Origin: Progne subis subis
Taxonomy: Eukaryota > Chordata > Aves > Passeriformes > Hirundinidae
Direction of reading: 5' to 3'
NCBI GenBank assembly: GCA_022316685.1
Contig: JAKJHU010001644.1
Location: 1-64,000 of the forward strand
DNA length: 64,000 bases
The notes beneath the pieces are model-generated. The model was not told the DNA's origin and did not search any database. It was given only the letters and a program-made list of their open reading frames with translations. The position numbers and the translations under genes are program-made. How positions within the stretch are numbered: position 1 is the stretch's first letter; each line of letters opens with the position of its first letter. Of this stretch, positions 2-47,984 are shown in pieces.

Positions 2-641
2 AGACATATTCTCCTGCTGATTGGTTTTATCATCACCAACCAAACCATGGTCTGGACAATAGAACACCCAGAAACAGATGCTGCAGTGCAGAAGATGCTG
101 CGATACACTATTGCCCAGCATGACAAAAGTAATTACCATCTGCTCCCAAGACAAATGGTAAAGGTCATAAAGGCAGACAAGCAAGTTGCAGGAGGAATCA
201 AATATAACATAGGGTGAAATTAAAACAAGATAACAAGTATGAACTATGTAACTTAGTGGTATTTCATACACCATGGAGGAACTCAATACAAATACTAAAA
301 GACCAATGCCAAAAGAGTGAGCCCCCAACCAACACTCCTGATCCGAAAAAGACTGATATAACCACTCAAAAATCTCTAACAACTAACTTTAGACATAAAA
401 GTGAAGACCAAGTCACAGAACGGATAGCTGCTGAAAAATTTATAAAACTTCTTATTTCTTTGTTATTACTGTAACCATTCTTTTACTGCCTTTATCCATC
501 TATCTTTATCATTTATATCATCGCAAGCATGTTATTAACACTGTCTTTTCAGTTTTTCAACAGGGAGGGGAGAACAAACTAGACAAAGACAGTAAAGGAT
601 CAGAGGACGATCCAAATAACCTGCCAAACACCCCCCCTTGA
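2..641 (+). pseudogene. Cystatin-like, membrane-anchored reading frame in a provirus (frameshifted)
   Basis: Seen: three overlapping frame segments read as one protein. Positions 2-217 give a hydrophobic signal-like stretch, then a cystatin-type helix (AVQKMLRYTIAQHDKSNYH) and a first inhibitory loop resembling the family QxVxG (KQVAGGIKY). Positions 214-474 give the cystatin C-terminal strand and second loop with the Pro-Trp pair (FHTPWRN) and a closing Cys, then a Ser/Thr/Pro/Lys-rich stalk. A third frame, about 441-641, gives a hydrophobic segment of about 20 residues and a polar acidic tail ending at TGA 639-641. Known: type 2 cystatins inhibit papain-like cysteine proteases and are secreted, with no membrane anchor. 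Inferred: a host cystatin mRNA was captured by a retrovirus and given an anchor. The part matching the middle cystatin exon is nearly absent. The start lies before the window. An ordinary processed cystatin pseudogene would not explain the in-line anchor or the env splice site downstream. Confidence 0.6.
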
Positions 642-764: not shown

Positions 765-781
765 CTAGTTTTTCTTTTTAG
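765..781 (+). promoter_or_regulatory. Putative env splice acceptor
   Basis: A pyrimidine-rich tract ends in TTTTTAG at 781, 27 bases before the ATG of the env fragment. Subgenomic env mRNAs of simple retroviruses use an acceptor in this place. The stretch 642-764 is AT- and C-rich and shows no coding signal. Functional use is inferred. Confidence 0.4.
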
Positions 782-807: not shown

Positions 808-1578
808 ATGAGAGGCAGTTACCATGTCACAGTGATGTGGATGCTCCTCATACTCCTCATGCTCCTCAACATCAAAGCATGGAAGATCAGAAAACCACCA
901 GAAAATGTATGGGTGACACTTGCCAAGACTCTCCGGCAAGACAATTTGTGCCTGTCCATGGGCTCCGTCAGCAGTCCTCTGTCGTCGTGCCTGGTAGGAA
1001 TCCCATTCGGAATCAACGAGCCATCACCTCTGCATCCCTTTGCAGGGAACTGGCCTGCCCTGCCCACCGCAGAGAAAGGACCAGCCCGAGAAGCCTGGAA
1101 CAGGGTGAAGCTCATACCCAAAGCTACAACAGACGCTGACAAAGAAAACCTAGTAGCAAACTCCGAGTCCCAAGAGCTTGATCTGCTTGTCTCAGCAAAA
1201 GCTAGTTATTGTTTTAATTTTTACTTTCAAAATATGGCTTCTAGTTACAAAAATCAAAGTAAACCCCCTAAACAAAATTTTCAATTCGGTCAACAGTGCT
1301 ACTACACAACAAAAATGCCATTCGACACTTCTGGCTTCCTTATTCCCAGGGCACTTCCCAAGGGCGTGTTCCTAATTTGCGGCGACAGGGGTGGGCAGGA
1401 ATCCCTTCCCGCATCCAAGGAGGTCCATGCACCTTTGGCCGACTTACAACACTCACCCCAAACATTACTCTTACAAGAATGGAAACAAAAAAATAAATTT
1501 GCCCGTCCAAAAAGATCCTATACCCAATTTGATGAAAATTTGATGCCACCCTTTTTGATTGGTGGTGTCCTTGGGTGA
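808..1578 (+). pseudogene. env: env surface subunit fragment (alpharetrovirus-like Env), truncated
   Basis: ATG at 808 opens a frame with a leucine-rich signal peptide (residues about 10-22), then NVWVTLAKTL and a Cys-containing block seen in avian retroviral SU proteins. Between about 1385 and 1500 the retroviral signal moves to another frame (GIPSRIQGGPC, LTPNITLTRM) and then returns with a furin-like RPKRS near 1503-1517. The 256-codon frame is therefore open partly by chance, with two compensating frameshifts. The transmembrane subunit that should follow is missing: an LTR begins a few bases after the stop. The same Env type is recognisable in the remnant of element F (52276-52826). It cannot make a fusion protein. 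Confidence 0.65.
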
Positions 1579-1583: not shown

Positions 1584-1811
1584 TGATGCTTGTATCCCCA
1601 GTCATCTTCTCTGTTTGTGCTGTATATTGAGTTCTGTGCCTTTAAGACTGGTTCTAAGAGCAAGGAGAAGCATGGAATTTGTTTTGAGAAAACTGCCTGA
1701 CTCCTACACATTCTTCTCTGGACAGGGTGTTCAGCAGAGAATTTTTTTTGCTTTTTAGTTAGTTTCAGCTAGCTTGGGCAGAGAAGTTCCCTGGACTGGT
1801 TTTGTTGTTTT

Positions 1812-1855
<44 letters not shown>

Positions 1856-2322
1856 GTTTTTTTGTTTGTTTGTTTGTTTTTTTTTTTTGTTTTGTTTGTT
1901 TTGTTTTGTTTTGTTTTGTTTGTTTTTTTCCCTTTTTCTTGGACTGTTTAAACCTGCTCTGGACTGAAAACCCAGAGGAGCACTGGGGGCTGCACCTGCG
2001 GCCCACCGGGGCCTGGACCTCGGCATTTTCCAGCAGCGCCGGAGGCACTGGGACTGATGAGAAACTGAGAGAGAGCTGAGCTCCACCCACAGCAAGAACT
2101 TTCTCAATTTGCCATCTCACTCCAGAACGAGAGGTTTTATTGTTTCATATTATTCATTCTTTAATACTTGTATGCACTTTGTTCGTTAAGTAAAATAGTT
2201 TTTTCCACTTTTCTCCAAAGAAGTTTTTTACTGGACCGGTTGGAGGAGGGGCCACTTGGGTTTGCTTCCCAGAGGGATCCTATTCAGGGGTTTTCTCCCA
2301 AATTTGTCCCTAAACCAGGACA
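1584..2322 (+). mobile_element. LTR of a passerine class II-type ERV
   Basis: Begins TGATGCTTGTATCC and ends AAACCAGGACA, with the AT-rich 3' portion (TTAAGTAAAATAG, CTTTTCTCCAAAG) and the closing GGGGTTTTCTCCCAAA block typical of songbird ERV LTRs. It carries a long poly-T and TTTTG tract inside. It follows the env fragment directly, without the transmembrane region, so either the provirus suffered a deletion or this LTR was joined by recombination. The 5' boundary is approximate. The 3' end abuts the satellite with no visible target duplication. Confidence 0.65.
1805..1931. repeat. Poly-T and (TTTTG)n tract inside the LTR
   Basis: An uninterrupted run of about 40 T, then TTTG and TTTTG repeats. 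Low complexity; its Lys- and Phe-rich translations are not genes. Confidence 0.9.
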
Positions 2323-2941
2323 GAGTGATTGAGACCAAACAGACAGAGATGAAATGAGGCACAATGAAAAGGACCAAAACTTGCCAAAAGTACTCCAATT
2401 CAAATGCTGCAATCAGGCAAGAAGTGGAAATGAAGGAAGGAAGGAGAGAAAATGAAATTGAGGAAATGCAAGCTTAAAATGAAAAAGCAAGAAATGTTTA
2501 AAGCATGTGAAAAGCAAAAAGTGAATGGGATGACAAGAAGTGCAGGGAAAGGGGTTGAAGCTTGCCCAATTAATCTTCCTTGAAACCTTGAAAAGAGGGA
2601 ACAAAGCCTAACAAACGCTCAGGAAAGGAGATACTGTGAGAAACAGTGCAAATGAAAACAACCAAGAATATTTGGAACCAGAGTGATTGAGACCAAATAG
2701 ACAAAGATGAAATGAAGGTTACTGAAAAGGGCCAACACTTGCCAAATGTACTCCAACTCAAATTCTGCAATTAGTCAAGAAATGGAAATAAATTATGGAG
2801 AGGAAAAAATCTAAAAAATGAAAACTTAAAAAAGAGAAAATTTTGAAAGCATGCGAAAAGAAAAAAGTTGATAGTATGAGAAAAAGTGATGGAAAAGGGA
2901 TGGAATCTATCCACATGAATCTTCATTGACTTTGCAAGATG

Positions 2942-2987
2942 CATTCACTTTCCCGAAAGGAAAGTGTTCCTTTTGGGAAAGGGAATG
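2942..2987. repeat. Palindrome in satellite unit 2
   Basis: Inverted repeat built on TTTCCCGAAAGGA and its imperfect complement TCCTTTTGGGAAAG, around a short AAGTG loop. Confidence 0.8.
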
Positions 2988-3710
2988 AAAACTTGAAAAC
3001 AGGGAACAAAGTCTAACAACAATGAGGAAAGGAGATATGATGAGAAACAATGTGAATGAAAACAACTGAGATAATTTGGAACTGGAGTTATTGAGACCAA
3101 ATAGACTGAGCTGAAATGAGGGGCACTGAAAAGGACCAACACTTGCCAAACATATGCCAATTCAAATGCTGCAATCAGGCAAGAAATGGAAATAAATGAA
3201 GGAGAGGAAAATAAATTGAAGAAATGCAAGCTTAAAATGAAAATGGGAAAATTTTGAAAGCACATGAAAAGCAAAAAGTGAACGGGATGATAGGAAGGGC
3301 AGGGTAAACAACTGAAGCTTGCCCAATTTATCTTCATGAAAATCTTGAAAACAGAGAAAAAAAATAACAAACACTCAGGAAAGGAGATATGGTGTGAAAC
3401 AACGTGAATAAATACAAAAAGGAGAAATTTTGGAACCAGAGTGATTGTGACCAAATGGACTGAGCTGAAATGAGGGGCACTGAAAAGGACCAACACTTGC
3501 CAAATGAACTCCAATTCATGTGCTGAAATCCGTCAAGAAATGGAAATAAAAAAAGGGGATGAAAACAAATCCAAGAAATGCAAGCTTAAAATGAAAAAGG
3601 GAAAAATTTGAAAGAATGTGTAATTACAAAATGAATGCAATGACAAGAAGTGCAGGGAAAGGGACAGAGGCTTACCAAATTAATCCTAATTGAAATTGCA
3701 ATATTTCAAT

Positions 3711-3751
3711 CCCTTTCCCGAAAGGAAAGTCATCCTTTCGGGAAAGGGAGT
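3711..3751. repeat. Palindrome in satellite unit 4
   Basis: CCCTTTCCCGAAAGGA and TCCTTTCGGGAAAGGG form a near-perfect hairpin stem of about 16 bp around a 6-7-base loop. This is the best preserved of the three. Confidence 0.85.
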
Positions 3752-4119
3752 GAAACATTAAAATCAGGGAACCAATAAGAACAAATGCTCAGGAAAGGAG
3801 ATATGATGGAAAAGAATGCAAATTAAATCAACCGAGATTATTTGGAACTGGAGTGATCATGGCCAAATGGACTGAGATTAAATGAGGGGCAATGAAAAGG
3901 AAAAATACTTGGCAAACATACTCCAATTCAAATGCTGTAATCAGGCAAGAAATGGAAATAAATGAAGGAGAGGAAAAGAAATGGAAGAAATGCAAACTTA
4001 AAATAAAAAAGGAAAAATTTTGAAAGCACGTGAAAATCACAAAATGGATGGTATGACAAGAAGTGCAGAGAAAGGGACAGAAGCTTGCCCAATTAATCTT
4101 CATTGAAATGGCAAGATTT

Positions 4120-4169
4120 CATTCCCTTCGGAAAGTCTTCCTTTCGGGAAAGGGAATGAAATCTTGAAA
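4120..4169. repeat. Palindrome in satellite unit 5
   Basis: CATTCCCTTCGGAAAG faces CTTTCGGGAAAGGGAATG. The left arm has lost a few bases relative to unit 4. Confidence 0.75.
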
Positions 4170-4374
4170 ACAGGGAACAAAGTCTAACAAACGCTCAGGA
4201 AAGGAGATATGATGAGGAAACAGTGCGAATGAAAACAACTGAGAATATTTGGAACCAGAATGATTGAGACCAAATGGACTGAGCTGAAATGAGGGGCACT
4301 GAAAATGATCAACTTCTGCCAAAATACTCCAATTCAAATGCTAATATCAGGAAAGAAATGAAAATAAAGAAAGA

Positions 4375-5014: not shown

Positions 5015-5017
5015 GAG

Positions 5018-5964
5018 CTCCCCACCAGCTCTTTTAAGGTGGCCCCGAGCTTAGACTAGGCTCCCTTGGAGAAGGAGTTCCAATTAGAATAATGCATAAG
5101 AAAAAGAAGCCAGCAATAGGAGGCACTCATAAAAGCTGACATTGGAGTGCCGGCTAAAGGTAAAGGTGCCTGTAAAACGTCTTGTGCACAAGAACTGTGT
5201 GGGAAAATGGACTGTGTAAGTACCACGGGGTTGAGCAGGCGGGCAGCTGTATGTTTGTGTGTGTGCAGAATATCTAAAATGGGGGCTGGTAGCCCAGACC
5301 CCCAAAGCAAGTGCAAACATCCCAGTACCGCGTTATTGGCTCTCTGTGAGGAGACCAGGTGGGAAAGGAGAGAAGCAAAAAGAGAGAATGAGTGAGGTTG
5401 CCTGGGAGGGACTGGGAGGAAGGGTCCTGGCCCAAGAACCCAGGGCAAGGTCCTTGAGGAGAAGGGAGCGATCTGATCGCTGGGTGAGGTGAATAAGGAG
5501 GGGAACAATTGAGTCACGTTCAATTTTCTTTGAGAAGAAAATAGTTGGTAACTTTAGTACAAGACTAAGAGGGATTGCAAGGGAAAGTGGCTAGAAGGAT
5601 ATAGTCAGGGAAGACAGATGGGGAGAAAGATTGGAATTAGGTGTGAGGCAAACAGTTGGCAAAAGACAAGATAGTGCAACAGAATAATAAGTGAGAGGAC
5701 TGAACCGCACAATGAGGGAGGGAGACCAAGATTCTCCTGGTACTGGGGATTTCTTAGTTTGTTGCCGCCAAAATGAGTCCAAGGAAAAATAAGTCCTTAG
5801 ACCCAGGAGCTGTGAATTAGGAAGGAAATTGACAAGAGCCTGGTATACCTGGGAACAGTGAGGGGGGTTCTCAGAAGGGGAGCATCCCTCAGGACACTCC
5901 ACTGGGGATGATGTTACGATTCTGAGATGCATTTGAATCCTGAAGAAGAAAAAATAAGCAGAAA
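5018..5964 (+). other. A1 untranslated leader
   Basis: Collinear with 49573-50483 of A2. No open frame is preserved in both copies in the sense direction. It should hold the packaging signal and splice donor, but I cannot point to either. Antisense readings are shadows. Confidence 0.6.
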
Positions 5965-6331
5965 ATGATTAATTATTGTATGTTTGAAAGGACAAAGGAA
6001 ATGATTGGGAAAGATAACTTATATTGGCCAAAGTTTGGACCATTTGAAGATTTGATTTACCAGGCTTTGATTTTGTATGTGAATTCAAAAGAGCCATTTA
6101 ATCAGGAAGAAAGTGACTATGCTGCTCTGTGGCTTCTCAGGGGAAAGGGTGAATTTCTTACTTGAAGGCAGGGGAGCAAAGGTCATCTGTTGTATCCTTT
6201 ACAAAGTAGAGGTTGAGCCATCAAAAAAGATAGACTCAAAAAAGATAGCCCTAGGATCCGTTAGATCACCTCCCAGCCCCTTATAGGCAACCTAATCAGC
6301 CCGTTCAACCCCAAGCCCCCGAGGGTCCTCC
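5965..6331 (+). pseudogene. gag: A1 gag, matrix remnant
   Basis: Open from ATG 5965 to 6165 with matrix-like text (KDNLYWPKFGPFEDLIYQAL; YAALWLLRG), then stops. The same matrix region in A2 is open further upstream and downstream. Gamma-type matrix proteins have this 'one Trp-Pro, Tyr-rich' helical start. Element B then interrupts the gene, which resumes at 11804. Confidence 0.65.
6326..6331. repeat. Target site duplication of element B, left
   Basis: TCCTCC here and at 11798-11803 flanks the two LTRs of element B exactly. The uninterrupted A2 copy reads straight through this point near 50900. Six bases is the duplication size of alpha- and betaretroviral-type integrases. Confidence 0.9.
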
Positions 6332-6721
6332 TGTTACCCTGGTTTTTCTGAGCTTTCTTATTAGCCTTCTTGAAATTCATAATGGAGTCAGATCTTTTAG
6401 TTACTGTTCAATATTAGGAGCAGTTTTCTATCTTTCCCATAGATGTAACTTAAACAAACTCTTTGTTTCTCATTCTTTGTCCTTTGTTTGCATATTTCTA
6501 ACCTGAAAAACAACTGTAACTGACAGTGGGTCTGGCCACTGAGGATGAGGGGTGGAAACCCAAAAAGCCAATCTTCTGACAGATCCACAAATGTATAAAA
6601 AAGTAAAGAATAAACAAAGAGGGGCTTCCTTCGCTCTCTTCTCGCTGAGGAGAAGCTGGAAGAACCTCTGCCTGAAAATTATTTATGTCTGTGCGTTATT
6701 GCTTTGTGTGTCTCGGCGACA
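6332..6721 (+). mobile_element. Element B 5' LTR (390 bp)
   Basis: Starts TGTTACCCTGG and ends CTCGGCGACA. A TATA box (TATAAAA) lies at 6594-6600 and AATAAA at 6609-6614. It is nearly identical to the 3' LTR at 11413-11797, with only about ten differences by eye, so the insertion is much younger than A1. Confidence 0.9.
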
Positions 6722-6723
6722 TC

Positions 6724-6742
6724 TGGTGACCCTGAGTGAACG
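6724..6742 (+). promoter_or_regulatory. Element B primer binding site, tRNA-Trp type
   Basis: TGGTGACCCTGAGTGAACG starts two bases after the LTR. It resembles the 3' end complement of tRNA-Trp, the primer used by avian leukosis-type viruses, with a few mismatches. Confidence 0.75.
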
Positions 6743-6961
6743 AATGTTTTGGTGAGGTACTTTTTCCCCTCTGTCTGGGTTGTGTTTATTATGGAGGATT
6801 CTTTAGTCTGGAAACTTTGGGAGGATATCTTGGAGCGGAAAGGTGCTCAGATATCCCAAGACGGCCTTCAGAGTCTATTCGCATGAGGCAGGCGGCATGG
6901 GTTCTTTCCCACTCTGGGATCTATTCTAAATCAAGGAGAGTGGTATGCCCTGAGGGACTGT

Positions 6962-8443
6962 ATGCTGGACTCCCTTGATATAGAATATGATGAAGAACTT
7001 GCAAGGGTGTATTTACAGTGGAAATTATTTGAGAAAGCTGTGTTTAAGTCGACCCCCCCCAGCTCGCAGACTAGCGGCCCCGTTCCTGCGCGGAGGGGTT
7101 CCCCCCCCTTGGGTTCCGGCGCTGCTGTTGGGCAGAGGAGGGGCGGAGCCCCGCCAAGCTCGGGCCCCTTTCTGCCGGCACCCATGCGGTGGAGCCGCCG
7201 GGGCGGGGCGGGGCCGGCTCTGCCGGTCCCCGCACTGCAAGGCGGCCAGAGCAGGGCGGGGCTGGCCCCTCCGGTCCCGTCTGCCCCCACGCCGCCGCGG
7301 GAAGATGCCGGAGGCGGGGCCCCAGTCAGCCTCTCGGCGGGTGCCGCCCTCATGAGCGGGCTGACAGCTTCGCCCCGCTCCGGAGTGGGGGGGGCCGCAG
7401 GCTCCCGGGCCCCCAAGGGACCCCTTCTCGGGGGGGTTCCGGACACTCCGCCTCCCACGCCGGGCCTATGGGCTGTTGGCGATGCTCGCGGGGCGGGAAG
7501 AGGCTCTGAGGCGGCCAGTTCTAATGGGCAGCCGGCAGGGACCGACGCGGCCCCGCCAGGGAAGGAGGTGCGATCTCCGCCCCCGCTTAGAAGCGATGCA
7601 AATTCCCCAGCAGTTGTGCCTGCCGCAGAGGCATCTGACCGGTCTCCGGCGGCCGGTGCGGGCTCCAGCCCCACTACGGATGCGGCAGGCCCGACACCAG
7701 CAGCTGGTCTGACCCCGCCCCTGCTTCCCGCTGTGAGCGCTACGGTGGCAGCTACGGGCGGTGAGGTGTTTCAGCTCAGCGCGAGCGGGGACACAGCTGG
7801 AATGCAGCCGGTCTTTGATAAGAGCAAAAGTTCCCGCCCTGTTGGCTCTTCGACAACAGTTTGGACGCCCCCCCCTTGTCAGGTGACCGTAAGGCCGGAA
7901 GACCGTGGCCAGTTCTGGGATGAAGTAAAGGCTAACGTTGAAGGATTGAGTGCTGGTGCAGGACTTGCAGTGCCTGCATCTGACACTGTGGGGTTTACAG
8001 GGCAGGATAAGGCAGGTGCTACTGCTTCAGCTGAGGGTCTTCAGGCCTTTCCTGTCCTTCAGGGTGCTACTCATAACACCTATCAACCCTTGGCTTGGCA
8101 GGCTTCGACAGAACTGATGGATGCGGATTTTTCGGGACAGATTCACACAATGGTCTCCACACCCACCCTCCCTCTGACTATTCCAAAAGTCACACGAATT
8201 GCTCAACTTGTTCCTTTTAAGTCTTCTGTTCGCAGAACCGAGGACCGATTGCGAGGAGATGGTGGCTTCGGCTTTACAGGGCCACCCCAGGTGCACTGGA
8301 CTGCTGTCCTGACCAAAGACTGTCCTGAGACGCTGTGTACCGTGTCCATGGTTGGTGCCACGCCATTGGAGGTTGAGCTTCGTGGCCTTGTAGATACAGG
8401 GGCTGATGTAAGCATTCTCTCCCTGGATGCTTGGCCCCCGTAG
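6962..8443 (+). pseudogene. Element B gag-pro remnant: matrix, Pro-rich linker, capsid stub, dUTPase tail, protease start
   Basis: One open frame of 493 codons. Residues 1-30 look like the end of a matrix domain; similar text continues upstream of the ATG to a stop near 6880, so the original start was earlier. Residues about 30-270 are a GC-rich Pro/Ala/Gly linker. Around residues 355-380 is a capsid N-terminus (NTYQPLAW). It then passes directly into a dUTPase C-terminus (GGFGFTG, near 8260) and a protease with the catalytic LVDTGADVSIL at 8389-8421. Most of capsid, all of nucleocapsid and the first part of dUTPase are missing through an in-frame deletion near 8100-8110. Confidence 0.75.
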
Positions 8444-8449
8444 TGGCCT

Positions 8450-8644
8450 TTGACCCTGGCAAAGACACCAATCGCGGGCTTCGGAGGAACGAAGCAATGC
8501 TACGTGAGCCAGAATCTCCTGGCCATCACGAACCCGGAGGGACAGACAGCCATAATTTGGCCTCATGTTACTGAGATTCCTCAGAACCTCTGGGGGAGGG
8601 ATGTTTTGGCCACGTGGGGTGTGCGATTGGGAACGGATTTTTGA
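8450..8644 (+). pseudogene. Element B protease, C-terminal part
   Basis: Continues the protease after a stop at 8441-8443, with flap and C-terminal text ending in the class II motif [12 protein letters not shown]. Retroviral aspartic proteases dimerise and cut Gag and Pol; here the halves are in separate frames. Confidence 0.65.
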
Positions 8645-10940
8645 TTGGGGCCACTGTGATGAAGGGCGCAGAGTGTCCCACGCCTCCTTTACAGTGGTTG
8701 GTGGACAGACCCATCTGGGAGAACCAGTGGCCCCTCCCTCATGACAAGCTAATTGCCCTTCATGAACTCGTACAGGAGCAGTTGGATCAGGGGCATTTGG
8801 AACCATTCACCAGTCCCTGGAACACTCCTGTCTTTTGTATCAAAAAGAAGTCTGAGAAATGGAGGTTGCTAGAAGACCTCCGAATGATCAATGCCGTGAT
8901 AGAAGGCATGGGAACATTGCAGGCTGGTATGTGCCTACCATGCTTCCTGCGGACTGGCCGGTCCTCATTGTGGATGTGAAGGATTGTTTTTTTACGATCC
9001 CTCTGCATCCCGATGACAGACCAAAATTTGCCTTCACGGTACCAACAATAAACGATGCAGAGCCCACACAGCGGTATCAATGGAGAGTTCTTACTCAAGG
9101 AATGCGGAATTTTCCAATGTTGTGCCAATGGTATATAGCCCATGCCTTGTCTGGAGTTCGCAAGCAGTTTCTTGATTCTCACGTCTATCATTATATGGAC
9201 GACATTTTGGTGGCTGCGCCCACCCAGGATGAGCTGCTGAGGATACAGCCTCAGTTGTTGAATGCTCTGCATTCACATGGACTGCAGGTAGCTCCAGAAA
9301 AGGTACAACAACAATCCCCCTGGAAATATTTGGGGGTCAAAATTCTGGAAAGGACAATCCGTCACCAGGAGGTGCAATTTGTGCAATCGGTGAAGACACT
9401 GAATGATGCTCAGAAGCTGGTAGGTGTTATCACTTGGTCCCCTTACTTGGGACTGACCACAGCACAACTGTCTCCCTTGTTTGAATTGTTGAAAGGGGAC
9501 ACTGATTTAAAGTCACCTCGTGAATTAACCCCTGAGGCACTAAAAGTGCTGGAGGAGGTTCAGCAAGCTGTTTTAGCTTGCCAAGTGTACCGCATTGAAT
9601 CTTCCATTGATGTCACTGTGTTCATTACCACTCCTGATTTACATCCTACAGGTATCATCAGCCAATGGAATGATGATTGGACTGATCCTCTGCACGTCTT
9701 GGAATGGGTCTTCCTGCCTCATCAGCCGCATAAGACGGCAACGGCGCTGTTTGAATTGATTGTGCGCTTGATAATCAAGTGCCGGCAACGCTGTTTGCAA
9801 TTGATGGGTGCAGATCCCTCAAAGATCATACTCCCGGTTCAGAGGGAGGAATTTGATTGGAGCTATGCGAATAATGTTTCGCTGCAAAGTGCTCTCGAGG
9901 GTTTTTCAGGGCAGATTACTTATCATCTGCCTAGCCACAAGCTATTGCAAGTGGCCAAAAACACTCAATTTTCTCTACGACCCAAAAATAGCCAAGAGCC
10001 AGTGCAAGGACCCACCATCTTCACTGACGGTTTGGGCAAAACAGGAAAAGCCATTGTTACCTGGCAGGATGGGTCTGAGTGCCAGGTTTTGGAAGGCCAT
10101 GAGGATGGGTCAGCCCAAATGATTGAATTAAAGGCTGCTGTCATGGCATTTGAGAAATTTTCCCAGGAACCTTTCAATTTGATCACGGACTCCGCCTATG
10201 TTGCTGACATTGCACAGCGATTGGGTTGTTCAGTGTTGAAGGAGGTCAGTAAACCTGCCTTGTTTAATTTACTGAAGACCCTGTGGTGTGCAATTCAGGC
10301 CAGAGTCCATCCATACTATGTTCTGCATGTACGGAGTCACACTAATCTGCCAGGATTTGTAGCGGAAGGTAACACAAGGGCTGACAAGTTGGCTAACCCA
10401 GCGTGGGTAGTCCCTCAGCCTGATGTGCTCGCACAGGCCAAGGCATCGCTTGGGTTTTTCCACCAAAACGCGCATACGCTGCAGAAGCAGTTCCAACTGA
10501 CGGCCACTGAGGCCAATGAAATTGTTGAGTCATGTGACGACTGTCGCACCCTTGGTGCACCATTGCCAGAAGGGTTTAACCCTAGAGGCCTTAAAACCTT
10601 GGAGCTTTGGCAGACTGATGTCACCCAGGTAGCCAAGTTTGGTCTGCTCAAGTATGTGCATGGCACGGTGGATACACTCTCCTCTGCGATGTGGGCTTCT
10701 GCTCACACTGGAGAGAAAGCCCGTGATGTCATTGCCCACTGGAGGCAGGCCTTTGCTGTTCTTGGCATACCTTCTGCTGTGAAGACCGACAATGGTCCTG
10801 CTTATGCCTCGCAGCAGGTATGGCAGTTCCTACAGTCACATAACTTTGGCATCCCTCATTCTCCGACAGACGATTGTAGAACGCAATCATGGTACACTCA
10901 GACGTGTTCTTCAGAAGCAGAAACGGGGAATGCAGGGTGA
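8614..10940 (+). pseudogene. pol: Element B pol: reverse transcriptase, RNase H, integrase
   Basis: The fingers domain ([31 protein letters not shown]) reads in one frame to about 8930, then shifts to the 693-codon frame opened at 8859. Catalytic YMDD is at 9192-9203. RNase H motifs are TDGLGKTG (about 10022), the conserved Glu (MIELKAA) and TDSAY. Integrase has an HHCC zinc site (FHQNAH...CDDC, about 10459-10545) and catalytic Asp residues in WQTDVTQ (about 10608) and KTDNGPAY (about 10783). A second frameshift near 10865 throws off the last catalytic Glu. These are alpha/betaretroviral-type enzymes. All central catalytic residues of reverse transcriptase and RNase H are present. Confidence 0.85.
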
Positions 10941-11334
10941 AACCCCACACAGTCGGTTGGCAAAGGCTTTGTACACCATCAATCACCTTACGGTGCCGCA
11001 GAACTCAAATAATCCTGTCATTTTGAACCATCATGTCTCGTTGCAGGCTTCGGATGGTGAGCAACAGCCTTGAGCGAAGGTACGGGTCCGAAATTTAGTC
11101 ACCAAGCAATTGGAAGGACCTTATGACCTGATCGCTATGGGGCGAGGGTATGCGTGTGTGTCCACGGACACTGGGACACGCTGGCTACCTTCAAAGTGCA
11201 TCCGTCCTGACCTGCGACCACAGAGGCAGAATTCAGCTGACAGGCAAGGTGGAAGCCGTGATCAACTTGAAAACCACCAAGTGGATGAATCCTCGAGTGA
11301 TCACTCTGATGATTCCTCCACAGACAGTGATTGA
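10860..11334 (+). pseudogene. Element B integrase C-terminus
   Basis: After the frameshift the frame continues with the third catalytic position (IVERNHGTL, about 10872-10900) and runs to a stop near 11073. The DNA-binding SH3-like tail (GPYDLIAMGRGYACVS, TRWLPSKCIRP) follows in the next segment. The acidic end (DESSSDHSDDSSTDSD) closes pol just before the 3' LTR; no env follows. Confidence 0.75.
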
Positions 11335-11412
11335 ATTTGTATATATTCCCTATGTAAAATTGTTCATTTTTCTTTTTCTGTTTTTTCTTTTTTTAAAGTT
11401 AAAAGGGTGAGA

Positions 11413-11797
11413 TGTTACTCTGGTTTTTCTGAGCTTTCTTATTAGCCTTCTGGAAATTCATAATGGAGTCAGATCTTTTAGTTACTGTTCAATATTAGGA
11501 GCAGTTTTCTATCTTTCCCATAGATGTAGCTTAAACAAACCCTTTGTTTCTCATTTTTTGTCCTTTGCATATTTCTAACCTGAAAAACAACTGTAACTGA
11601 CAGTGGGTCTGACCACTGAGGATGAGGGGTGGAAACCCAAAAAGCCAATCTTCTGACAGATCCACAAATGTATAAAAAGTAAAGAATAAACAAGGAGGGG
11701 CTTCCTTCGCTCTCCGCTCGCTGAGGAGAAGCTGGAAGAACCTCTGCCTGAAAATTATTTATGTCTGCGCGTTCTTGCTTTGTGCGTCACGGCGACA
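11413..11797 (+). mobile_element. Element B 3' LTR (385 bp)
   Basis: Starts TGTTACTCTGG after a purine-rich tract (AAAAGGGTGAGA) and ends CACGGCGACA. It carries the TATA box and AATAAA as in the 5' LTR. The right copy of the TCCTCC target duplication follows at 11798-11803. Confidence 0.9.
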
Positions 11798-11803
11798 TCC
11801 TCC

Positions 11804-12883
11804 TGTAAATACAAACACACCCCCTATTCAAAAGGGGCCAGTAGCACATAAAACTAGAGGTGGGGGACAGGGAGAAGTGATGATGGGGATGGGGAAGCAA
11901 AAATGGAAGATGGACTATACCCGCTTAGAAAAGTTCCAATGGCAAACCCAGAACAGAAACCTATTGGTGATGTGAGTGTTCCCCTGAACACAGGGGATGT
12001 TAGGGAGTTTAAGGAGGAGATGGGAAGGCTGCTAGAGGATCCTATTGGAGACGCAGAGGGATTAGATCAGTTCTTGGGGCCGAATATATACACCTGGGTG
12101 TAACTGCAGTCTGTCTTAGGAATCTTGTTTACCATGGAAGAAAGAGAAATGATTATACATTCAGGAATGAGGGTTTGGGATAGAGAATGTCAGGGGCCAG
12201 ACCAGGGGGATCAGAAATGGCCTATGCAAGATCCAGGTTGGAATAATCAGAATGAAAGACACAGGCAGAATATGAGTGATCTCCGGTGGATGATTATCCG
12301 AGGAATCCGGGAAGCAGTGCCCAAGGGGCAGAATATAAGGAAAGCTCTTCGTGAGCACCAAGGGAAGGATGAACCCCTGGCAGACTGGTCAGAAAGACTA
12401 AGAAAAGCCTTGCAGTTATATTCAGGTGTAGACCCCGATACTGCAGCAGGACAGGTCCTTTTGAAAACACAATTTGTAGCTAAGTCCTGGGGGCACATCA
12501 GGAAGAAGCTGGAAAAAGTAGAAAATTGGCAGGATAGAGGGCCTCAGGAATTGTTAAGAGAAGCACAGAAAGTGCTTGTGAGAAGGGATGAGGAGAGGCA
12601 AAAGCCAAAACCACAGATTTTAATGGCAGCAGTCAAGGAAACACAGACATCCATGAATACAGAGAAGCGCTCAGGAAAGAACAAACAACAGAAAAAGGCA
12701 GGTCCCACCTCTGGGGATACGAGACCCACGTGTTTTTCCTGTCACCAAAAAGGACATTTACAAAATTCTTGTCCTACCTCCAAGGATACGGGACCTACTT
12801 GTTTTTATTGCCACAAAATGGACATCTACAAAAATTCTGTAGAAAGAGGCAGCGAGATGAGAAAATGTTTCAAGAAGATTTAG
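11804..12883 (+). pseudogene. gag: A1 gag: capsid and nucleocapsid
   Basis: Resumes gag after element B. The first part (about 11932-12103) ends at a TAA where A2 has GAA. The long frame 12125-12883 holds the capsid with the major homology region and a gamma-type C-terminus (SWGHIRKKLEKVENW). The nucleocapsid has one complete zinc knuckle, CFSCHQKGHLQNSC (C-x2-C-x4-H-x4-C), and a second damaged one (CFYCHKMDIYKNS). Two knuckles are found in several class I ERVs, while murine-type gammaretroviruses have one. Confidence 0.8.
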
Positions 12884-12904
12884 GGGGGTCAGGAGCTCTA
12901 TTTA

Positions 12905-13141
12905 ATGAGGACTGAACACCTAGAAGAGCCCTTGATAAAACTGAAAGTAGGTCCTCAAAATGAAGAAATTACATTTTTGGTGGACACAGAACCTATGAGG
13001 TCGACAGTAAGAAAACTACCACAAGGATATGAAGTAAGTTGTAAATGTGTCCCAGTAATTGTGGTTAAAGGAGAAGGTTTTCAGGTTCCTGTAATTAAAA
13101 ATGTGCAGATTGAAACGGATATAAAATTTTGGACTGAATGA
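12905..13141 (+). pseudogene. A1 protease, active site DTG changed to DTE
   Basis: Retropepsin-like frame (ITFLVDTEPMRST). The catalytic triad Asp-Thr-Gly reads Asp-Thr-Glu here and also in A2 (VDTEATRST), which would abolish activity. The downstream remainder (13142-13430) is in another frame and stops at a TGA, 13425-13427, where related pol proteins have Trp. Confidence 0.75.
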
Positions 13142-14290
13142 TTTGTTATTAATACCAGAAGCTGATTATAATTTATTAGGAAGGGCCTTAATAATAGCCT
13201 TGAGGATTAAAAGAACAACCTGTGAAGGAAAACTTAAAATCTATTCTTTAACTGAAGAAGATAATTTCCAGATTAGTGACACTGTGTGATATACTGGAGA
13301 AGTAGGAAAATTAAACATTCAGCCCATTAGTGTTGAAATACAAAACCCAGAAATCCCCATTCAAGTAAAAGAATATCCAATGTCACTGGAAGGTCGGAAG
13401 GGATTGAAACCGGTAGTTGAGAATTGAGTACATCAGGGGGTGTTGGAGTCCTGTGTGTCACCACATCATACCCCCATCCTGCCGGTAAAGAAGCCTGATG
13501 GCAGCTACCGACTAGTCCAGGATCTCAGAGCGGTAAATCAAAGAACCATTACCCGCTGTCCAGGAGTAGCTAAGCCAGATTCCTCCTAATTACATTTGGT
13601 ACAGTGTCGTGGATTTAAAGGATGCCTTTTGAACTTGCCCTCTGGATGAGGGCAGTAGGGATTGCCTTTGAGTAGGAGGACCCAGATACAGGTAGGAGAG
13701 AGCAATTAAGGTGAACGGCGCTACCGCAAGGTTTTACAGAGGCACCGAATCTTTTTGATAGGGAGTTAGAAAATCTTTGGAAGTCCTTTGAGTTACCCAA
13801 AGGAATTAAACTGCTACAGTAGGTAGATGATTTGTTAGTAGCAGGAGAAACTGAAGAGGAAACTAGAAAGGGTACTATTATGCTTCTAAATTTTCTGGGA
13901 TAATATGGGCTGAAGATATCAAAGTCAAAATTGCAGTTTGTAGAGTTAGAAGTGGGGTATTTAGGTCATTGGATTAGTAAGCAATAGAAAAAGCTAGACC
14001 TTGAAAGGGTTTCAGGAATATTGAACGTGGGAGCCCCAAAGTCTGAAAGAGAAATAAAGCAGTTTTTGAGTCTTTTGAGTTATTTTATTCAGTAGATAGA
14101 ATGGTTTAGTAGAAAAGTAAAATTTCCATATGAGAAATTAAATAGCAATCACTTGAAATGGACTGAAGGGATCAGGAAACTTTTGAGCAAGTTAAAGAAG
14201 CCCTACTGCAAGCTCCTGTACTGAGTCCTCCCAATTTAGACAAGCCTTTTCAATTATTTATTAATACAGTTGATCAAACACCTTATGAAG
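13142..14290 (+). pseudogene. pol: A1 reverse transcriptase, heavily stopped
   Basis: Recognisable blocks are HTPILPVKKPDGSYRLVQDL (near 13469), VVDLKDAF (near 13606), ALPQGFTEAPNLF (near 13718) and VDDLLVAGE (near 13826; the preceding Tyr of YVDD reads as a stop). Stops at 13630-13632, 13673-13675 and 13712-13714 all fall on expected Trp codons. A frameshift separates the first two. Gamma-type by sequence. Confidence 0.75.
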
Positions 14291-14292
14291 TA

Positions 14293-15212
14293 TTGACTCA
14301 AGACTGGGCGGGAAGACAAAAGCCAGTAGGATATTATTCCAAATTATTCTACCTAATTAGTAAGAGTTGGCCAACATGCCTGCAAGCTCTGGTAGTCACT
14401 GCTGTGTTAGTAGAAGAAGCAGGAAAAGAAACCTTTAGGGCACCACTGGAAGTATACACCCCCATAATATTAGGGGAATCCTTGCTAAAAAGGATGGAAA
14501 ATGGTTAACTGATAGCAGAATATTAAAATATGAGGCTATCTTGATAGACTCCCCTGAATTAGAGCTGAAAATGACAAATATACAAGGCCCAACTCAGTTC
14601 CTTTATGGGGATCCCGGGGAAGAATTAATACATGATTGCACAGAGGTCATAGAGTTACAAACAGAAATATGCCCAGATTTGAGAGAACAAGAATTAAAAA
14701 CAGGAGAAAAATTATATAGAGATGGATCATCCAGAGTAGTAGAAGGAAGAAGGAAATCTGGGTATGCCATAATTCTTGGAGAAAAACTGGAAGTAAAAGA
14801 ATCTGGTCCCCTTAGCCCGTCCTGGTCAGCACAAGCCTGTGAACTCCATGCATTATTCTGTGCATTGCTGTTATTAAAAGATCGAGAAGAGACCATATAC
14901 ACCGACTCAAAATATGCCTTTGGAGTAGTGCATACGTTTAGAAAAATTTGGAAAGAAAGGGGACTTCTAAACACTCAAAGAAAAGGAATAGTGCACCAAG
15001 GATTGATAATTCAAATTCTTAAAGCTTTGAAGAGCCCAAAAAAGATAGCAGTGGTTCATGTGAAAGGCCACCAGAGAGGGAGAGACATTAGAATAAAAAG
15101 AAACAATTTGGCTGATGATGAAGCTAAGAAAGCTGCCCTGAGGGAAAACAGCAATGTAATTATGACTTTCAGGAAGCAGGAACACAAAATCAAACACCAT
15201 ACTTTTCTTTAG
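14293..15212 (+). pseudogene. pol: A1 pol connection and RNase H
   Basis: Two frames: 14293-14508 (connection, PVGYYSKLF) and 14541-15212 (RNase H). RNase H motifs are DGSSRVV with the first Asp, QACELHALFCAL with the Glu, TDSKYAFGVVHTF with the next Asp, and HVKGHQRG followed by ADDEAKKAAL. It is open over 223 codons. Integrase should follow directly but is not recognisable. Confidence 0.8.
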
Positions 15213-15515
15213 CAGAAGTAGAAGCCATGAAAAACCTAGGAGCAACTCTAAAAGAGGGACAATGGATTCTCCCTGACAAAACCACAGTTCAAATGGCAGA
15301 AAAAGGCTAGACTCAAGCTTCAAGGGTAAAAGGACCTATACCAAATAAAGATTGGAAAATGTTTTTCAGCACCAGGAGACCTGAAAGTAAAATTAAAAAA
15401 TACTTAAATTTGATTAAACCTTTTTTTTAAAAAAAGGCTTAATTTATTAAAAAACTGAGTTGTAAACAGTTAAAGTAAAATTGTAATTAATCCACAACAT
15501 CAGTGAAGAGAGCAT
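15213..15515 (+). other. A1 pol to accessory spacer
   Basis: A short stretch of pol-like text (MKNLGATLKEGQWILPDK) and then AT-rich sequence with several stops. No integrase zinc site or D,D-35-E core is recognisable here or downstream. Confidence 0.5.
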
Positions 15516-15860
15516 TTGGTGCCAGAGGCTATAACTCATATGGAAAATAGTTTTCAGCTGTGGATTTCACATAATGCTGCAATACATTTGGTGTGCCACC
15601 CACATATTGAAAGAATAACCCAGCCCCAGGATATTCAAGATATCCTTAGTACAGAAAGGTCAGAAGCTGCCATCCCGCAGAGAGAAGTTTCCATGTTTCA
15701 GCAAGGTTGCTGCAAACACGGTCATCAGTGTGAGCGGTGTAAAGCAGTGACCATGAAGTGGCTGAGACAAAGACATTGGCACAGAACAACTGTACCTTGG
15801 GACCAAAGAGATGCAGCTTTTATGATTAACTGTATACGATGTTTTAGTAGAGTAGGGTGA
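15516..15860 (+). pseudogene. Unknown A-family frame 1 (A1 copy, start codon lost)
   Basis: 114 codons, almost identical to the A2 frame at 62702-63073, but A1 has lost the ATG that A2 keeps. It has a His/Cys-rich middle (CHPHIERI; CCKHGHQCERC) followed by a basic aromatic stretch (KWLRQRHWHR) and a closing IRCFSR. The cysteines could bind metal. I do not recognise the family. Position: after RNase H, where integrase is expected. Confidence 0.5.
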
Positions 15861-15869
15861 GACTTTAGA

Positions 15870-16115
15870 ATGCACAAATGGGTTTTAGCACAGATCAACA
15901 TTGATACTTTTATAATAGAAGATCAAGTACAAAGAGCATTGATTTATTTAGCGTATCACATGGAACAATTAGTGGCTTTGAGAACACTGCAAGAACAACA
16001 AAGGATAATGAAAGTAAGATGTGGATATAGTAGGATACCCAGAAAAAACAGAAAAAATAGATTGTCTTGCTTAACCTGTTCAGGTTATAAAACTCCTTTG
16101 ATAGTTAATGATTAA
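15870..16115 (+). pseudogene. Unknown A-family frame 2 (A1)
   Basis: Opens at ATG 15870 (MHKWVLAQINIDT), nine bases after the previous stop, and is matched by a frame at 63084-63255 in A2. Helical and Gln/Leu-rich (EQLVALRTLQEQQ), perhaps a coiled coil. The two copies diverge at the C-terminus. Function unknown; it may be a continuation of frame 1. Confidence 0.4.
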
Positions 16116-16520
16116 ATGTTTGTGGTTTGTAATTGCGACTAACTTTAATTTATTAGAAAAATTAGGCATTCTGGATTGGCTGTCAACAGCAACTCCATTG
16201 AGTTTGGAGTCAGAAGAACACCAGCGGGAAGGGATTAGACACTTCCTTGATCAATGGGAACAGCCTGAACAGATTGAAAATCTTTTAAGATGCCCTCAGC
16301 AACTACCATTAACAGATTTCATTGAGGAAGTACAGTTCCAGAAAAGAGACTGGAAACACCTGTTACTTAAAGAGTCCAAGAACAAGTAACACACTGGGAG
16401 TGTACTAAGCATGGCTTAGAGTGTCGCCCATGGGTTTGTGTTATTTGTACGCTTTGCCTTAATTTGTGGTGGAGAGTAACAAGAGCAGAAGAAAGAGAGA
16501 GACAAATGATTTTACTTGCT
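16108..16520 (+). pseudogene. Unknown A-family frame 3 (A1)
   Basis: A frame with EGIRHFLDQWEQPEQIE that is also in A2 (63259 onward). Past the A1 stop at 16387, both copies keep a Cys/His/Trp-rich block (HWECTKHG, CRPWVCVIC). Further text at 16560-16810 (FTILAFEQVREQTIHS; CGEGICVPRYRHIS) is shared too but broken. Not recognised. Confidence 0.4.
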
Positions 16521-17028
16521 TAGATGGTGTGCATGATGAGTTAACTTTAAAAAGCTTTTCCAGTGGTATTTTTGGAACACCTTTGAGATATGAAGATGGA
16601 ACCTTTTATGCAGCTGTTCAATTAATAGAAAATTTAGACCAATGAGTTTTTACTATATTAGCTTTTGAGCAGGTGAGAGAGCAAACAATTCATAGTATTA
16701 TAGACCACTGTATCATAATTAACGTCCCCTGTGGAGAAGGAATTTGTGTGCCACGCTATAGACACATTTCTTACATGAATTGGCATTGTGAATGTGCCTA
16801 TTGGTGGTGATGAAGACTTAATAATAATCCCCAACGTCAGAGCAAAATCTACCAACAAATAAGGTTGTTAATTGAAGTAGTGAAAATCAAATCTTATTGT
16901 GGTTGGCACATCTCTGGAGCTTTGGTGGTTTAGACTAAAAGAGGAAGTAGCTGACTAACCCAGAGAGAGAGAGAGAGAGGGCAGTGCTGTGAGAACTGTG
17001 AGTAATCTGTGCCATCCCTGAAACAAAC

Positions 17029-23604: not shown

Positions 23605-26485
23605 GTTAGGTATCGCTACTAGATCAATACCCATATTTCTTTAATAAGTCACAACAACCCACCTAGAGCGTTGAGCTGCAAGGAGTTCAAAGCTTGTCTT
23701 TCCTTCAGGTGCTGGTCTAATTCTGCCTTCAGCCAACTCTGGATTTGTGTTTATTGTAGAACTTCCTGAGTGTCTAAAACATTCCTTGCATGGTTCTGCC
23801 TTGGGGAGTGGCAACCTCCTTGGTGGCACCTTGGGCTTGGCACACACTTGAGGAGATTGCCTGAAACTTGGGAGTTTTAGATTGCTAATAAAGGAAGAAA
23901 GCTCCTCTTTGTCTGAGTGCAGCCAGTTCTCTGAGCAAAGTAGGTCTCAGGTGACTGAGGAGAGACAGGATAGGGTTGGGGGATGTGGAGCAAAGATATC
24001 CACACTGGGTCACACCTCAAGGCACAGCTTCTCTGACCTGGCCAGACCTCCTGAGGAAAGACCCTGGATCAGTATCAGTCACTTAATGCTGCAATCACCT
24101 CTGCTCTAAAGAGAAGAATATTCCTTGAAAATAGAAATGTGGATTTGTTAGAATCTCTTTGAAATATTTCTCCATAAATCTAGGAAAAAAGACTTCCTAG
24201 TGAACTGCAGCAGACCAGAGGGAAATCAAGGCACAGCCACGGTTTTTGTTGACTGAATGTCTTATTAAATCTGTTGCCAATGTTTCTCTGATTTCTAAGG
24301 TTGTCAGTAAAGGCTGCTTTGTTGTTTTGAGCTCCTGAGAATACCTTGTTGGTATTTCTCCAGTGTTTCCAACTCAAGAGTACACAAACAAATTTAATTC
24401 CTTTAAAATCTGTAATTGAGAGAGTTGTTTGGGGGCTGGGGGTCAGGGCTTGTGTGTCCTGCTTGGCACAGCCCAGGCAGGGCTTTCACAGCCACATTGC
24501 ACACTCCATTTCCCACCTGCACCTGCTGGTGCCTCTGAGTTCTGCTTGCCCAGCCCCAGGGACGCTCCCCTTGTCTGCCCATTCCCCACGGTCTCTGGGC
24601 AGGGATGGCCTCAGTGGGGGCTGCTGACAGCCACAGACACTTGGAGGCTGCTGCTGGGTTTGACTTCTCCAGAGGCTTGTTCAGCCTTCAACTCTTCAAG
24701 TCAGGAATTCAGTGCCCCAAGGTGCATCATCATTCAGAACACCTTAAAAGGCCAAGCCTCTGGGAATAATTTGATTTAAGTTTTCAAATCTTCTGTGGTT
24801 AATTAAACAGATTTTGGAAGTGTGTCCATAGTGAATATATTATATTTACAAAAGGTCCTGCTTAGGATTTTTTTCCTATTAATACATTTATATGTTCAAT
24901 CTCCAATTGACTTTGATCCCAAGGAACTTACTCATGCAGTTTGAATAGATATGAAAATCAAGATCCTTTATGTCTGACTTTCAACCAGATTTTGTCCCTA
25001 CTCCCACCCCACCATTTCCCCCATCCAAGCCCTGGGACTCAGAGCAGCCTTGTGTAAATCTGAGCTCCCTTCACCCCAGGCTGGACCTGCAGGTTTCAAC
25101 TCCTTGGCTCCAACTCCCACCTGCTTTCCTTGGAGAAGGAGCTGCCCGAGACACAGAGGGATGTTCATTTATTGTCAGCCAACAAACCCAAGGAAAGGCA
25201 CAGCTCCATCAAATGCAAAAGTCACTCTTCTCCCTGGCTCTGCCCTGCACCTGATCCCCACAGCCTGTGCTGTTTCCTTCATCCCTCCACTGCCAGGGAG
25301 TTTCTGGGACAAGGGAGCTCTGCTCTGGCTATGGAGGGAGGTGCAAGTGCAGCCACTGGAGTGGGAACCACAACTCATCAGGTTTGTGTCCTTGGAGGGA
25401 CCAGGAACTGGTGAGACTTGGAGGCACAGAAAGGTTTCTCTTCATGGCCAATATAAAAAATGTGAACATGATAAAATTTAATAAACATAAAACCACTTCC
25501 CCTCAGCTCCTTGTGACATCCCAGCAACATCTGACATGTCCACAACCCACAAGTAATTTCCATACAGGAAGAATTTTCAACTAAGACATAAGAAGAGGTG
25601 ATATATAAGATAAAAATAGAACTAAGATCATGACTAAGGTGTTATTTAAACTTCTGAAAAATTGGACAATTCTGTAAAGAACAAAGCATGAAGCCAGTCA
25701 AGGGAGATGCAATGGAATGACTGGAGAGGAGCTGCAGGAGGAAATCTGGGAGCAACAGGAAGGATATAGATCCAGCTGCTCTATATGAAGAAATGCCCTT
25801 ACACATGGCCGTTTAAACAGGAGACCTGGAAACACCTGAAGGAAGATGGCCATGAATTGTTAGACTGAATGCTGGTGGCAAAGGTAGAGGGGAAGATCAG
25901 TATTTCTTCTCCTGCCATCAGCAGGAGAATCCAGTAGATCCAGGAAATTCCTGTTCCTGGTGGGAAAATTTTGCCACTTCTTAAAAGTACTCAAATGATG
26001 CAGATAAAAAAATATTTTCTTTTACATTATGAGAGTAAAAGATATTAAAACCTGTGCCCCCTTCCAGGCAGACATCGTTTGTCTGCCCATGGACAGGCAG
26101 TGCCTCTTGTGCCCTGAGGTGCTGAGATGGGATTGGCATCTCTCAGAGAGGAGCTGAGGGAGAGCAGAGCACCATGCAAGCTGCAGGTCCCTGACAGCCC
26201 CAGAGGGCTCCTGTCCCAAAACCATCTGCTCTGCTCCAGACTGGAACAGGGACCAGCATCACGCTGGGATCATCAGAGAACTGAGGTGTGTGCTGGAATT
26301 CAGTCCCCTCCCCATCCCACAGCAGCCCTACATTTCCCTCCTCAAGCCTTGCTCTCCAGCACAGCCATGGAGGCTCTTTGGGCTCTGGACTTTTACTGCA
26401 GCCACCAAGGGCAGCTGAGCTCTGGCTTGGGCAGAGTCAGCCCTGCCCAGCCCAGGCACTGCCCAGCAATTACTTGTGTGTGCCC
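23605..26485. other. No recognisable gene or repeat
   Basis: 2.9 kb of mixed composition. Open frames up to about 140 codons occur but lack known motifs and have no second copy. Position 26480-26491 (TGTGTGCCCTGCAG) looks like a splice acceptor at the exact edge of the U1 homology, discussed in findings. Confidence 0.5.
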
Positions 26486-36936: not shown

Positions 36937-36941
36937 ATAAA

Positions 36942-38130
36942 TTAGCATTCCCCCAAAGAGCTGTGGCAGGGTTCCTGCTGCGAGAGGGCTCTTTTCTTCC
37001 CAGGAATTGGCTCAGGGCTGGGCTTGCCTACGGGCTGGGGATGCTGGGCCATTCCCAACGACTCGGTTCAAACTCCTGTTTGTCCTCTGAGGCTGAGCAA
37101 GTATCACGTGCAACCCTCACCGGTGTCTTTGTCATTGCCACTGACATCCTTCTGAGAGAGATGCCTGTGGGGCTGACCCATATACCAGTGCTTGGAGGCT
37201 TGGTAGGGACGCAGTTACGGCCCCACTCTGCTTGTCCAAACGCTCCGCTGCCCATCCTTGTGGGAGCTGGTGTTGGAGTGTGTTCATTTGGTTGATCCTG
37301 TCTTTCCTTTTGATCTTGGTGTTTGTGATGTTTTCTTCCCTGTTCCCCTTGGAAAGTGGAGCACGTTGTTTGTCCCTGCTTCGCTAGCGCCCATCCCCCA
37401 GGCTGGAATGGAACCCAACTCTGTTCCACTCCCACCTTCTCCCTGATCGGGGAGTGCCTTGTCCCTGCCTCTAGGCCCTTCCCCGCTCTGGGAAAAAGGC
37501 CTGCGACTGCAGGCAGCTCAGTCTCTCTGGCACCGGCGGCATCGGGGAAGGAGCTAAGGAAGAGCTGCGGCCGGCAGGGCAGGAGCCCAGAATCAAGCCA
37601 TGATATGCCCCAGGACAGAGGGCAAGCGCGGTGCCTTTTGCCATCGACGGTCATCTGGGTCTCTCCAAAGAACCACCACAAGCAGGGATGGGGCAGGCAC
37701 GTGGAACTGGGACTTTGCACCTGGCCAGGGAAGCCCCGCTGCAAGAGCAGCCTCTCCAGCGCTTCACAGCAGTCTGGTGCCTGGCAGCAGCTGATGAGGA
37801 GGAAATGACTCGGGTGGGCACAGGGCCCAGCCTGTGTGGCCGTGGCCGTGTGGCCGTGCCTGCGCCATGCTGCAGCCAGGGGCTGCCTGGTGCTAGCTGT
37901 GGATTGCCCAAGAGGTAGGCCATGGCCGCTCCCTGCAGTCCGTCCCTGCCCGATTTCCCCTTTGCCCAGGGAGGCTCGAGGGCAGGCAAGTGCAGGCTCA
38001 GGAGCTGATGCTGCCCACTGCAGAGTGTCCTGTGGCTCACGTGGAGGCAGCCAGTGGCAGCTCTGGGACTCGTGCAGGGGCGCTGGGGCTGTGACCCCCC
38101 CACTGCCACCAAAGGCTACGGCGGCTGCCT
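36942..38130 (+). other. U2 downstream region shared with U1 and U3
   Basis: About 1.2 kb conserved in all three units but with indels that break every open frame in at least one copy. Contains TTTGATCTTGGTGTTTGTGATG and several Pro/Ser-rich readings. No supported gene. Confidence 0.5.
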
Positions 38131-46559: not shown

Positions 46560-46565
46560 TGTCTC

Positions 46566-47979: not shown

Positions 47980-47984
47980 AATTC

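Follow-up and report, generated by a model that had tools for sequence, protein, structure and literature searches.

A frame-broken gene for a membrane-anchored cystatin, probably of captured origin, upstream of env in an endogenous retrovirus fragment of Progne subis subis

At the start of a 64,000-nt stretch of the Progne subis subis genome (contig JAKJHU010001644.1, positions 1 to 64,000 of the forward strand; hereafter the window), a cystatin-like gene with a stalk and a membrane anchor was recognized ahead of the env gene of an endogenous retrovirus (ERV). Positions 2-641 are very likely a copy, with its frame broken, of an accessory gene that a retrovirus acquired from a host cystatin. 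This identity together with the history proposed below is probable, at a lower confidence than the identity itself, and the mechanism suggested from the sequence, inhibition of cathepsins, is a tentative proposal that may well be wrong. The pieces of the gene in the window are as follows.

2..217, plus strand: N-terminal part of the putative captured gene from codon 4, with signal peptide, cystatin helix and first loop QVAGG (open frame 2-214; PF00031; chicken cystatin match).
208..474, plus strand: C-terminal part of the cystatin, with Cys, Pro-Trp loop and closing Cys, and the Thr/Pro/Lys-rich stalk (separate frame; chicken cystatin match).
435..641, plus strand: predicted transmembrane segment (about 453-509) and mildly acidic tail (third frame; hydropathy peak in an unbroken relative).

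The window pieces were searched one by one against PDB and Pfam. The frame 2-214 reads KQVAGGIKYN at the first loop, after a signal-like start and a helix. It scores 24.3 bits with the Pfam Cystatin profile (PF00031; cut-off 22.2), and its best PDB match is chicken cystatin with an E value of 0.0012 over 47 residues. The frame 208-474 reads CNLVVFHTPW, then the closing Cys, and its best PDB match is the chain end of chicken cystatin (E 0.011); the Pfam search of this frame returned no Cystatin match. Two separate pieces thus match the same protein in the correct order, which is more than chance. No second cystatin copy was found elsewhere in the window. An initial annotation of this stretch had placed here a signal-like start, a helix, the first loop, the Pro-Trp block, the closing Cys, a stalk, a hydrophobic segment and an acidic tail, and all were recovered at that place, the tail being only mildly acidic (6 acidic versus 4 basic residues in one copy). 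Its expectation of a cystatin as the best match was borne out by both window pieces and by an unbroken copy from elsewhere in the genome, which matches chicken cystatin with E 8.9e-11.

With the first window piece as query, the assembly (1.166 gigabases, 2896 contigs) yielded 107 rows at no fewer than 97 distinct places, and 35 of the 107 rows contain an open frame of at least 228 codons with no stop. Sixty copies, mostly the best-ranked rows, were read initially and 6 further copies later. Four of the 60, including the window, are contig ends, and the remaining 56 have flanks; the frame is unbroken over at least 216 codons from the ATG in 28 of these 56. The window copy is a member of a subgroup with a common frame-breaking change. 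The contigs C655, C718 (the window), C737 and C1567 all start or end at one base of the cystatin gene, and these identical ends are probably an assembly break in an amplified unit.

The unbroken copies encode a protein of 216 residues with a signal peptide, a cystatin domain, a flexible stalk, a single transmembrane helix and the tail, which is short; it is predicted to sit in the membrane as a type I protein whose head is a protease inhibitor. Three of them score 26.6, 31.9 and 32.3 bits with PF00031 (31.9 for the natural copy with E 8.9e-11), and two of these pass the related SQAPI profile as well. Among the 28 unbroken copies, the start Met and the Pro-Trp second loop are present in all, and the second Cys pair in 27. 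The first inhibitory loop motif of cystatins is QxVxG; here it reads QVAGG in 27 copies and QIAGG in one, with the Q and the last G kept and A instead of V at the third position. The stalk of one copy (residues 108-150) contains 8 Thr, 5 Pro, 6 Lys and 2 Ser. After the domain, a hydropathy peak of 2.04 over 19 residues (155-173) is seen in L038, and the segment is also visible in other unbroken frames. With an anchor and only the second disulfide pair, the protein falls outside the type 2 (secreted) cystatins, which have two disulfides and no anchor.

In the alignment with chicken cystatin, residues 26-77 of the unbroken copy correspond to chain residues 7-58 and residues 82-107 to chain residues 83-108. 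Twenty-four chain residues are replaced by 4, a loss of about 20 residues between the inhibitory loops. In type 2 cystatins, the first disulfide lies in the replaced stretch. Compact cystatins lacking the loop of this disulfide, those of plants for instance, are inhibitors. Aligned to the phytocystatin-based Adhiron (PDB 4n6t), residues 30-100 match with E 8.2e-07; the single gap, of two residues, follows the helix, and the stretch between the loops is ungapped. These alignments indicate that the domain has a compact, plant-cystatin-like plan. The resemblance to plant cystatins is a likeness of plan, not descent. Chicken cystatin is a secreted protein without an anchor. Egg-white cystatin (PDB 1a90, 1yvb, 1a67) is the best match over the helix, the first loop, the Pro-Trp loop and the closing Cys, and differs in retaining the first-disulfide segment. 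The Adhiron shares the inter-loop spacing of compact cystatins, whereas its score is lower than that of chicken cystatin and its origin is in plants.

The short inter-loop part had initially been attributed, tentatively, to an aberrant mRNA without the middle cystatin exon. Loss of the whole exon was rejected: only about 20 residues are gone, there is no gap relative to compact cystatins, and the swallow models P0004 and P0022, described below, read across the same junction with the same loss. No aberrant mRNA is needed to account for the short part.

The gene order around the cystatin was determined from the flanked copies and, downstream, from the window itself, where two further features follow the gene.

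766..781, plus strand: pyrimidine run and AG, putative env splice acceptor (sequence; swallow proteins join env here).
808..1578, plus strand: frame of the Env surface subunit (SU), with an RPKR furin-like site at about 1504-1515 and stops soon after (swallow relative P0001, Avian_gp85).

Separate protein queries placed ribonuclease H (RNase H) ahead of the gene in all 56 flanked copies and Env SU after it in 55, on the same strand, and the previously suggested location between pol and env is upheld. The sole copy without an SU match, L035, has an ERVL-like insertion ahead of env. Integrase sits between RNase H and the captured gene and is open over at least 285 codons in 15 of 56 copies. The captured gene fills the interval from the integrase stop to the env acceptor. 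The pol of the cystatin-carrying virus is absent from the window because the window starts downstream of it, and was read in other copies.

An acceptor-like ATAG/AACAC is located about 36 bases before the cystatin ATG in 47 of the 56 copies. The env acceptor-like TTTTTAG/AAGCAAACC is exact in 49 of 56, and 6 of the other 7 have AG at the same place. In the window, its AG ends at 781 and the Env ATG is at 808, in agreement with the acceptor and start codon first annotated there. Swallow proteins join env at the env acceptor position, with the residues KQTPKDHSE, and all five swallow models that include the captured gene switch from other sequence to NTN.. at the acceptor-like site before the ATG, as if at an exon start. 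These junctions agree with a spliced mRNA of its own, from which the protein would probably have been made.

When the SU frame was searched against 5.8 billion proteins, 21 matched, 11 of them from barn swallow. P0004 joins a Cystatin domain to env, P0007 the gene start to env, and P0009 RNase H, the gene start and env. A second protein search, started from P0007, returned five proteins, all barn swallow models of the captured gene. Compared with the best copies here, the cystatin pieces of the swallow models reach 89-95% identity, and none is identical. These matches indicate that the captured gene is present in the barn-swallow assembly. P0022 and P0023 run from the captured gene into the pol of another ERV; gene models may jump between neighbouring ERVs, and the swallow models therefore support linkage more than structure. 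The swallow relative P0001 is 73% identical to the SU frame of the window. With the Avian_gp85 profile (cut-off 32.2 bits), the swallow SU relative scores 48.7 bits and the window frame 15.2 bits, below the cut-off. The RNase H-integrase region shares 48-52% identity with a different pol that lies in the window and is itself taken as class II. By the relatedness of pol and SU, the carrier is assigned to the avian class II (alpha/beta-like) ERVs.

The sequences around the gene are shared between copies well beyond the viral genes. In the window, the env frame is followed by two features.

1613..2322, plus strand: segment resembling a long terminal repeat (LTR), separating env from the repeats (sequence).
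2323..4373, no strand assigned: tandem array of five to six imperfect repeats, each about 350-410 bases long, after the unit (sequence comparison).

Of 40 copies with enough downstream flank, 39 run into tandem repeats of the window type, and two of three longer downstream pieces match the window over about 3 kilobases (kb) at 94%. Upstream, L064 and L065, the only two loci read beyond pol, share about 3 kb more at 88-96% identity, and in both, pol starts inside the reverse transcriptase. Over about 3 kb, the 56 copies diverge from one another by a median of 3.5%. No second copy of the LTR-like segment (1613..2322) was found upstream in L064 or L065, and the carrier unit yielded no LTR pair usable for dating. 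For the Env transmembrane subunit, the corresponding pieces of P0014 and P0015 were searched against 71 loci, of which L005-L020 hold little sequence past the SU end, and gave nothing better than E 1.4. A whole-Env alignment in L060 reached residue 313, through stops, and is not borne out by the search with the transmembrane subunit only. Together, the shared flanks, the pol start inside the reverse transcriptase and the missing Env transmembrane subunit point to a single 5'-truncated fragment, apparently multiplied with its neighbourhood about a hundredfold. Six more-damaged copies are 96-97% identical to the amplified unit, with L066 and L070 rearranged upstream. A mobile family of independent insertions is not supported by the copies examined: these six damaged ones belong to the same unit, and flanks are shared.

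Selection was analyzed with 28 unbroken copies, as the ratio of amino-acid to silent change relative to neutral; the values refer to present copies, after the amplification. When each variable site is counted once, the whole gene has 91 amino-acid versus 23 silent changes, 1.42 of neutral (p 0.14). By segment, the same count gives 7.35 for the signal peptide (p 0.021), 2.47 for the cystatin part (29 to 4 changes, p 0.11), 1.60 for the stalk (p 0.48) and 0.68 for the transmembrane segment and tail (p 0.28), with 0.95 for integrase (p 0.76) and 1.03 for env (p 0.93); the gene read in two wrong frames gives 0.71 (p 0.14) and 0.85 (p 0.43). In a spanning-tree count, the values are 0.80 for the gene (p 0.16), 9.3 for the signal peptide (p 0.004), 2.3 for the cystatin part (p 0.12), 0.54 for the transmembrane segment and tail (p 0.026), 0.72 for integrase (p 0.005) and 0.89 for env (p 0.41). 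The two counts disagree on integrase and on the transmembrane segment and tail, and nothing was rested on these. The present copies have drifted neutrally since the amplification, like integrase and env.

These data bear on the idea that the amplified gene was co-opted by the bird to serve as an inhibitor in the membrane, for example against other viruses, which is very improbable. The 35 rows open over at least 228 codons would fit such a use, as would the signal peptide (codons 1-23), where 18 amino-acid changes stand against 1 silent change, unlike integrase and env (p 0.021). This value is, however, one of four segments and uncorrected, and change over the whole gene is neutral in the same manner as in the two viral genes. 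Nor is intactness special to the cystatin: it is intact in 28 of 56 copies, as against 15 of 56 for integrase and 38 of 56 for the N-terminal part of env.

Several points weigh against the reading as a captured retroviral accessory gene. No complete provirus or independent insertion with the captured gene was found among the copies examined. Since one unit was amplified, claims on viral spread with the gene are weaker, and the identity of the gene is unaffected. The acceptor-like AG before the cystatin ATG is absent in 9 of the 56 copies, and the swallow exon borders were derived from proteins, not from exon coordinates. Purifying selection on the captured gene was not found among the 28 copies by either count. 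The window copy is limited in itself, being broken in frame at two places and beginning at codon 4. Structure prediction with AlphaFold for the fused swallow model P0022, from 7 alignment rows, was uninformative, with a mean predicted local distance difference test score of 33. The capture by a retrovirus as first proposed is favoured by the cystatin domain, the stalk, the anchor, the gene order and the unbroken copies, and the full-length proviruses of the same order that had been anticipated did not appear, every copy examined being the one 5'-truncated unit. The same shared, non-viral flanks would suit an origin without any viral cargo, in which a host anchored cystatin or its retrocopy landed between pol and env of an endogenous fragment and was then co-amplified. 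This is improbable: the gene fills the space that separates the integrase stop from the env acceptor, on the same strand and with its own acceptor-like site in most copies. In addition, no membrane-anchored cystatin was found in the open-licence literature searched, and the search from P0007 gave only the five barn swallow models.

The inhibitory mechanism has its own difficulties. The helix lacks a preceding Gly in the copies read, and this, with QVAGG in place of QxVxG, means that inhibition may be weak. Such departures, and the absent first-disulfide loop, are also what would be seen if the captured cystatin were a binding module that had lost inhibition and acted as a membrane decoy, attachment factor or immune ligand. 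The excess of amino-acid change in the cystatin part fits a changing face of such a module, without reaching significance. The Pro-Trp loop and Q[V/I]AGG are nevertheless kept in 28 of 28 copies, and compact cystatins, such as those of plants, do inhibit, so that a pure binding role is considered rather unlikely. With these motifs, the captured compact cystatin could plausibly have inhibited papain-like cathepsins at membranes.

The window contains several other elements. A class II-like ERV (6332-11799), with an LTR pair at 6332-6723 and 11413-11799 (95% identical), is nested in a gamma-like ERV, and in L062 the sequence matching window position 6334 continues directly to 11798, representing the empty site of this class II-like ERV. 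The gamma-like ERV region is present twice, at 5015-6331 plus 11798-16960 and at 49578-64000, with 88-93% identity, which points to a duplicated block. Within the second block, a direct-repeat pair (51476-52202 and 58900-59618, 97.7% identical) looks like the LTRs of a further insertion. An ERVL-like element lies at 42086-48675 on the minus strand, with terminal repeats about 92% identical, and a relative of it is the insertion just before env in L035. Three copies of a GC-rich segment, 96-97% identical (26483-28383, 35959-37859 and 39898-41800), have long open frames on the two strands. The genome also contains many Env frames without a break, 427-577 codons in length and with relatives among finch and thrush proteins (at least 145 rows, with 97 of 4681 candidates scored). 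By eye, no Env place adjoins a cystatin place among the matches listed.

The nearest precedent is the KIT-ligand open reading frame between pol and env of the crocodilian CrocERV29, reported by Chong et al. 2014 (PMC4299795), who call the capture of host genes at this position without loss of env rare. In both systems the reading frames are unbroken in several copies among decayed ERV genes. They differ in that the CrocERV29 cargo is a cytokine ligand for which the authors report purifying selection, not found here, and in that the carrier here is truncated and was multiplied by duplication. In CrocERV31, described in the same article, nectin3 is likewise a host membrane-protein gene in an ERV, but it replaces env instead of standing ahead of it. 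The word cystatin does not occur in the main text of PMC4299795. Cystatins are known from bracoviruses, which are polydnaviruses (PMC2553070). These too are carried by a virus that acts on an animal host; they belong to DNA viruses of parasitoid wasps, and the portion of the article consulted mentions no membrane anchor. The first window piece had no relatives in the protein search, and scans of viral_contigs gave none either. No retroviral cystatin or membrane-anchored cystatin was found in the open-licence literature searched, and subscription papers may differ; within that literature, an anchored-cystatin cargo is not found described for any retrovirus.

Papain-like cathepsins occur in endosomes, the place where several viral envelope proteins are cut, and at sites of antigen processing. 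In the preferred reading, an avian class II retrovirus would have captured a host cystatin between integrase and env, and the protein would have put a cysteine-protease inhibitor on the membranes shared with Env, at the cell surface, the endolysosome and the virion. Its two inhibitory loops would plug the cleft of papain-like cathepsins, which would spare Env or disturb antigen processing. The carrier would then have lost its 5' part and the Env transmembrane subunit, and the remnant would have been multiplied about a hundredfold with its flanks by duplication within the host genome, its copies decaying neutrally. In its fullest form, the proposal is that a bird retrovirus made a membrane-anchored compact cystatin as a new class of accessory protein, travelling with Env, blocking endolysosomal cathepsins, and shielding Env or blunting antigen processing, and that expression of some unbroken copies may continue in birds alive today. 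This is somewhat unlikely as a whole. The cargo would be a protease inhibitor turned membrane protein, and it would link host cathepsins to the entry of retroviruses or to antigen presentation. The unbroken natural copies make both the fold and the inhibition directly testable. The carrier itself appears to be a case in which duplication, not retrotransposition, multiplied a truncated fragment of a provirus about a hundredfold.
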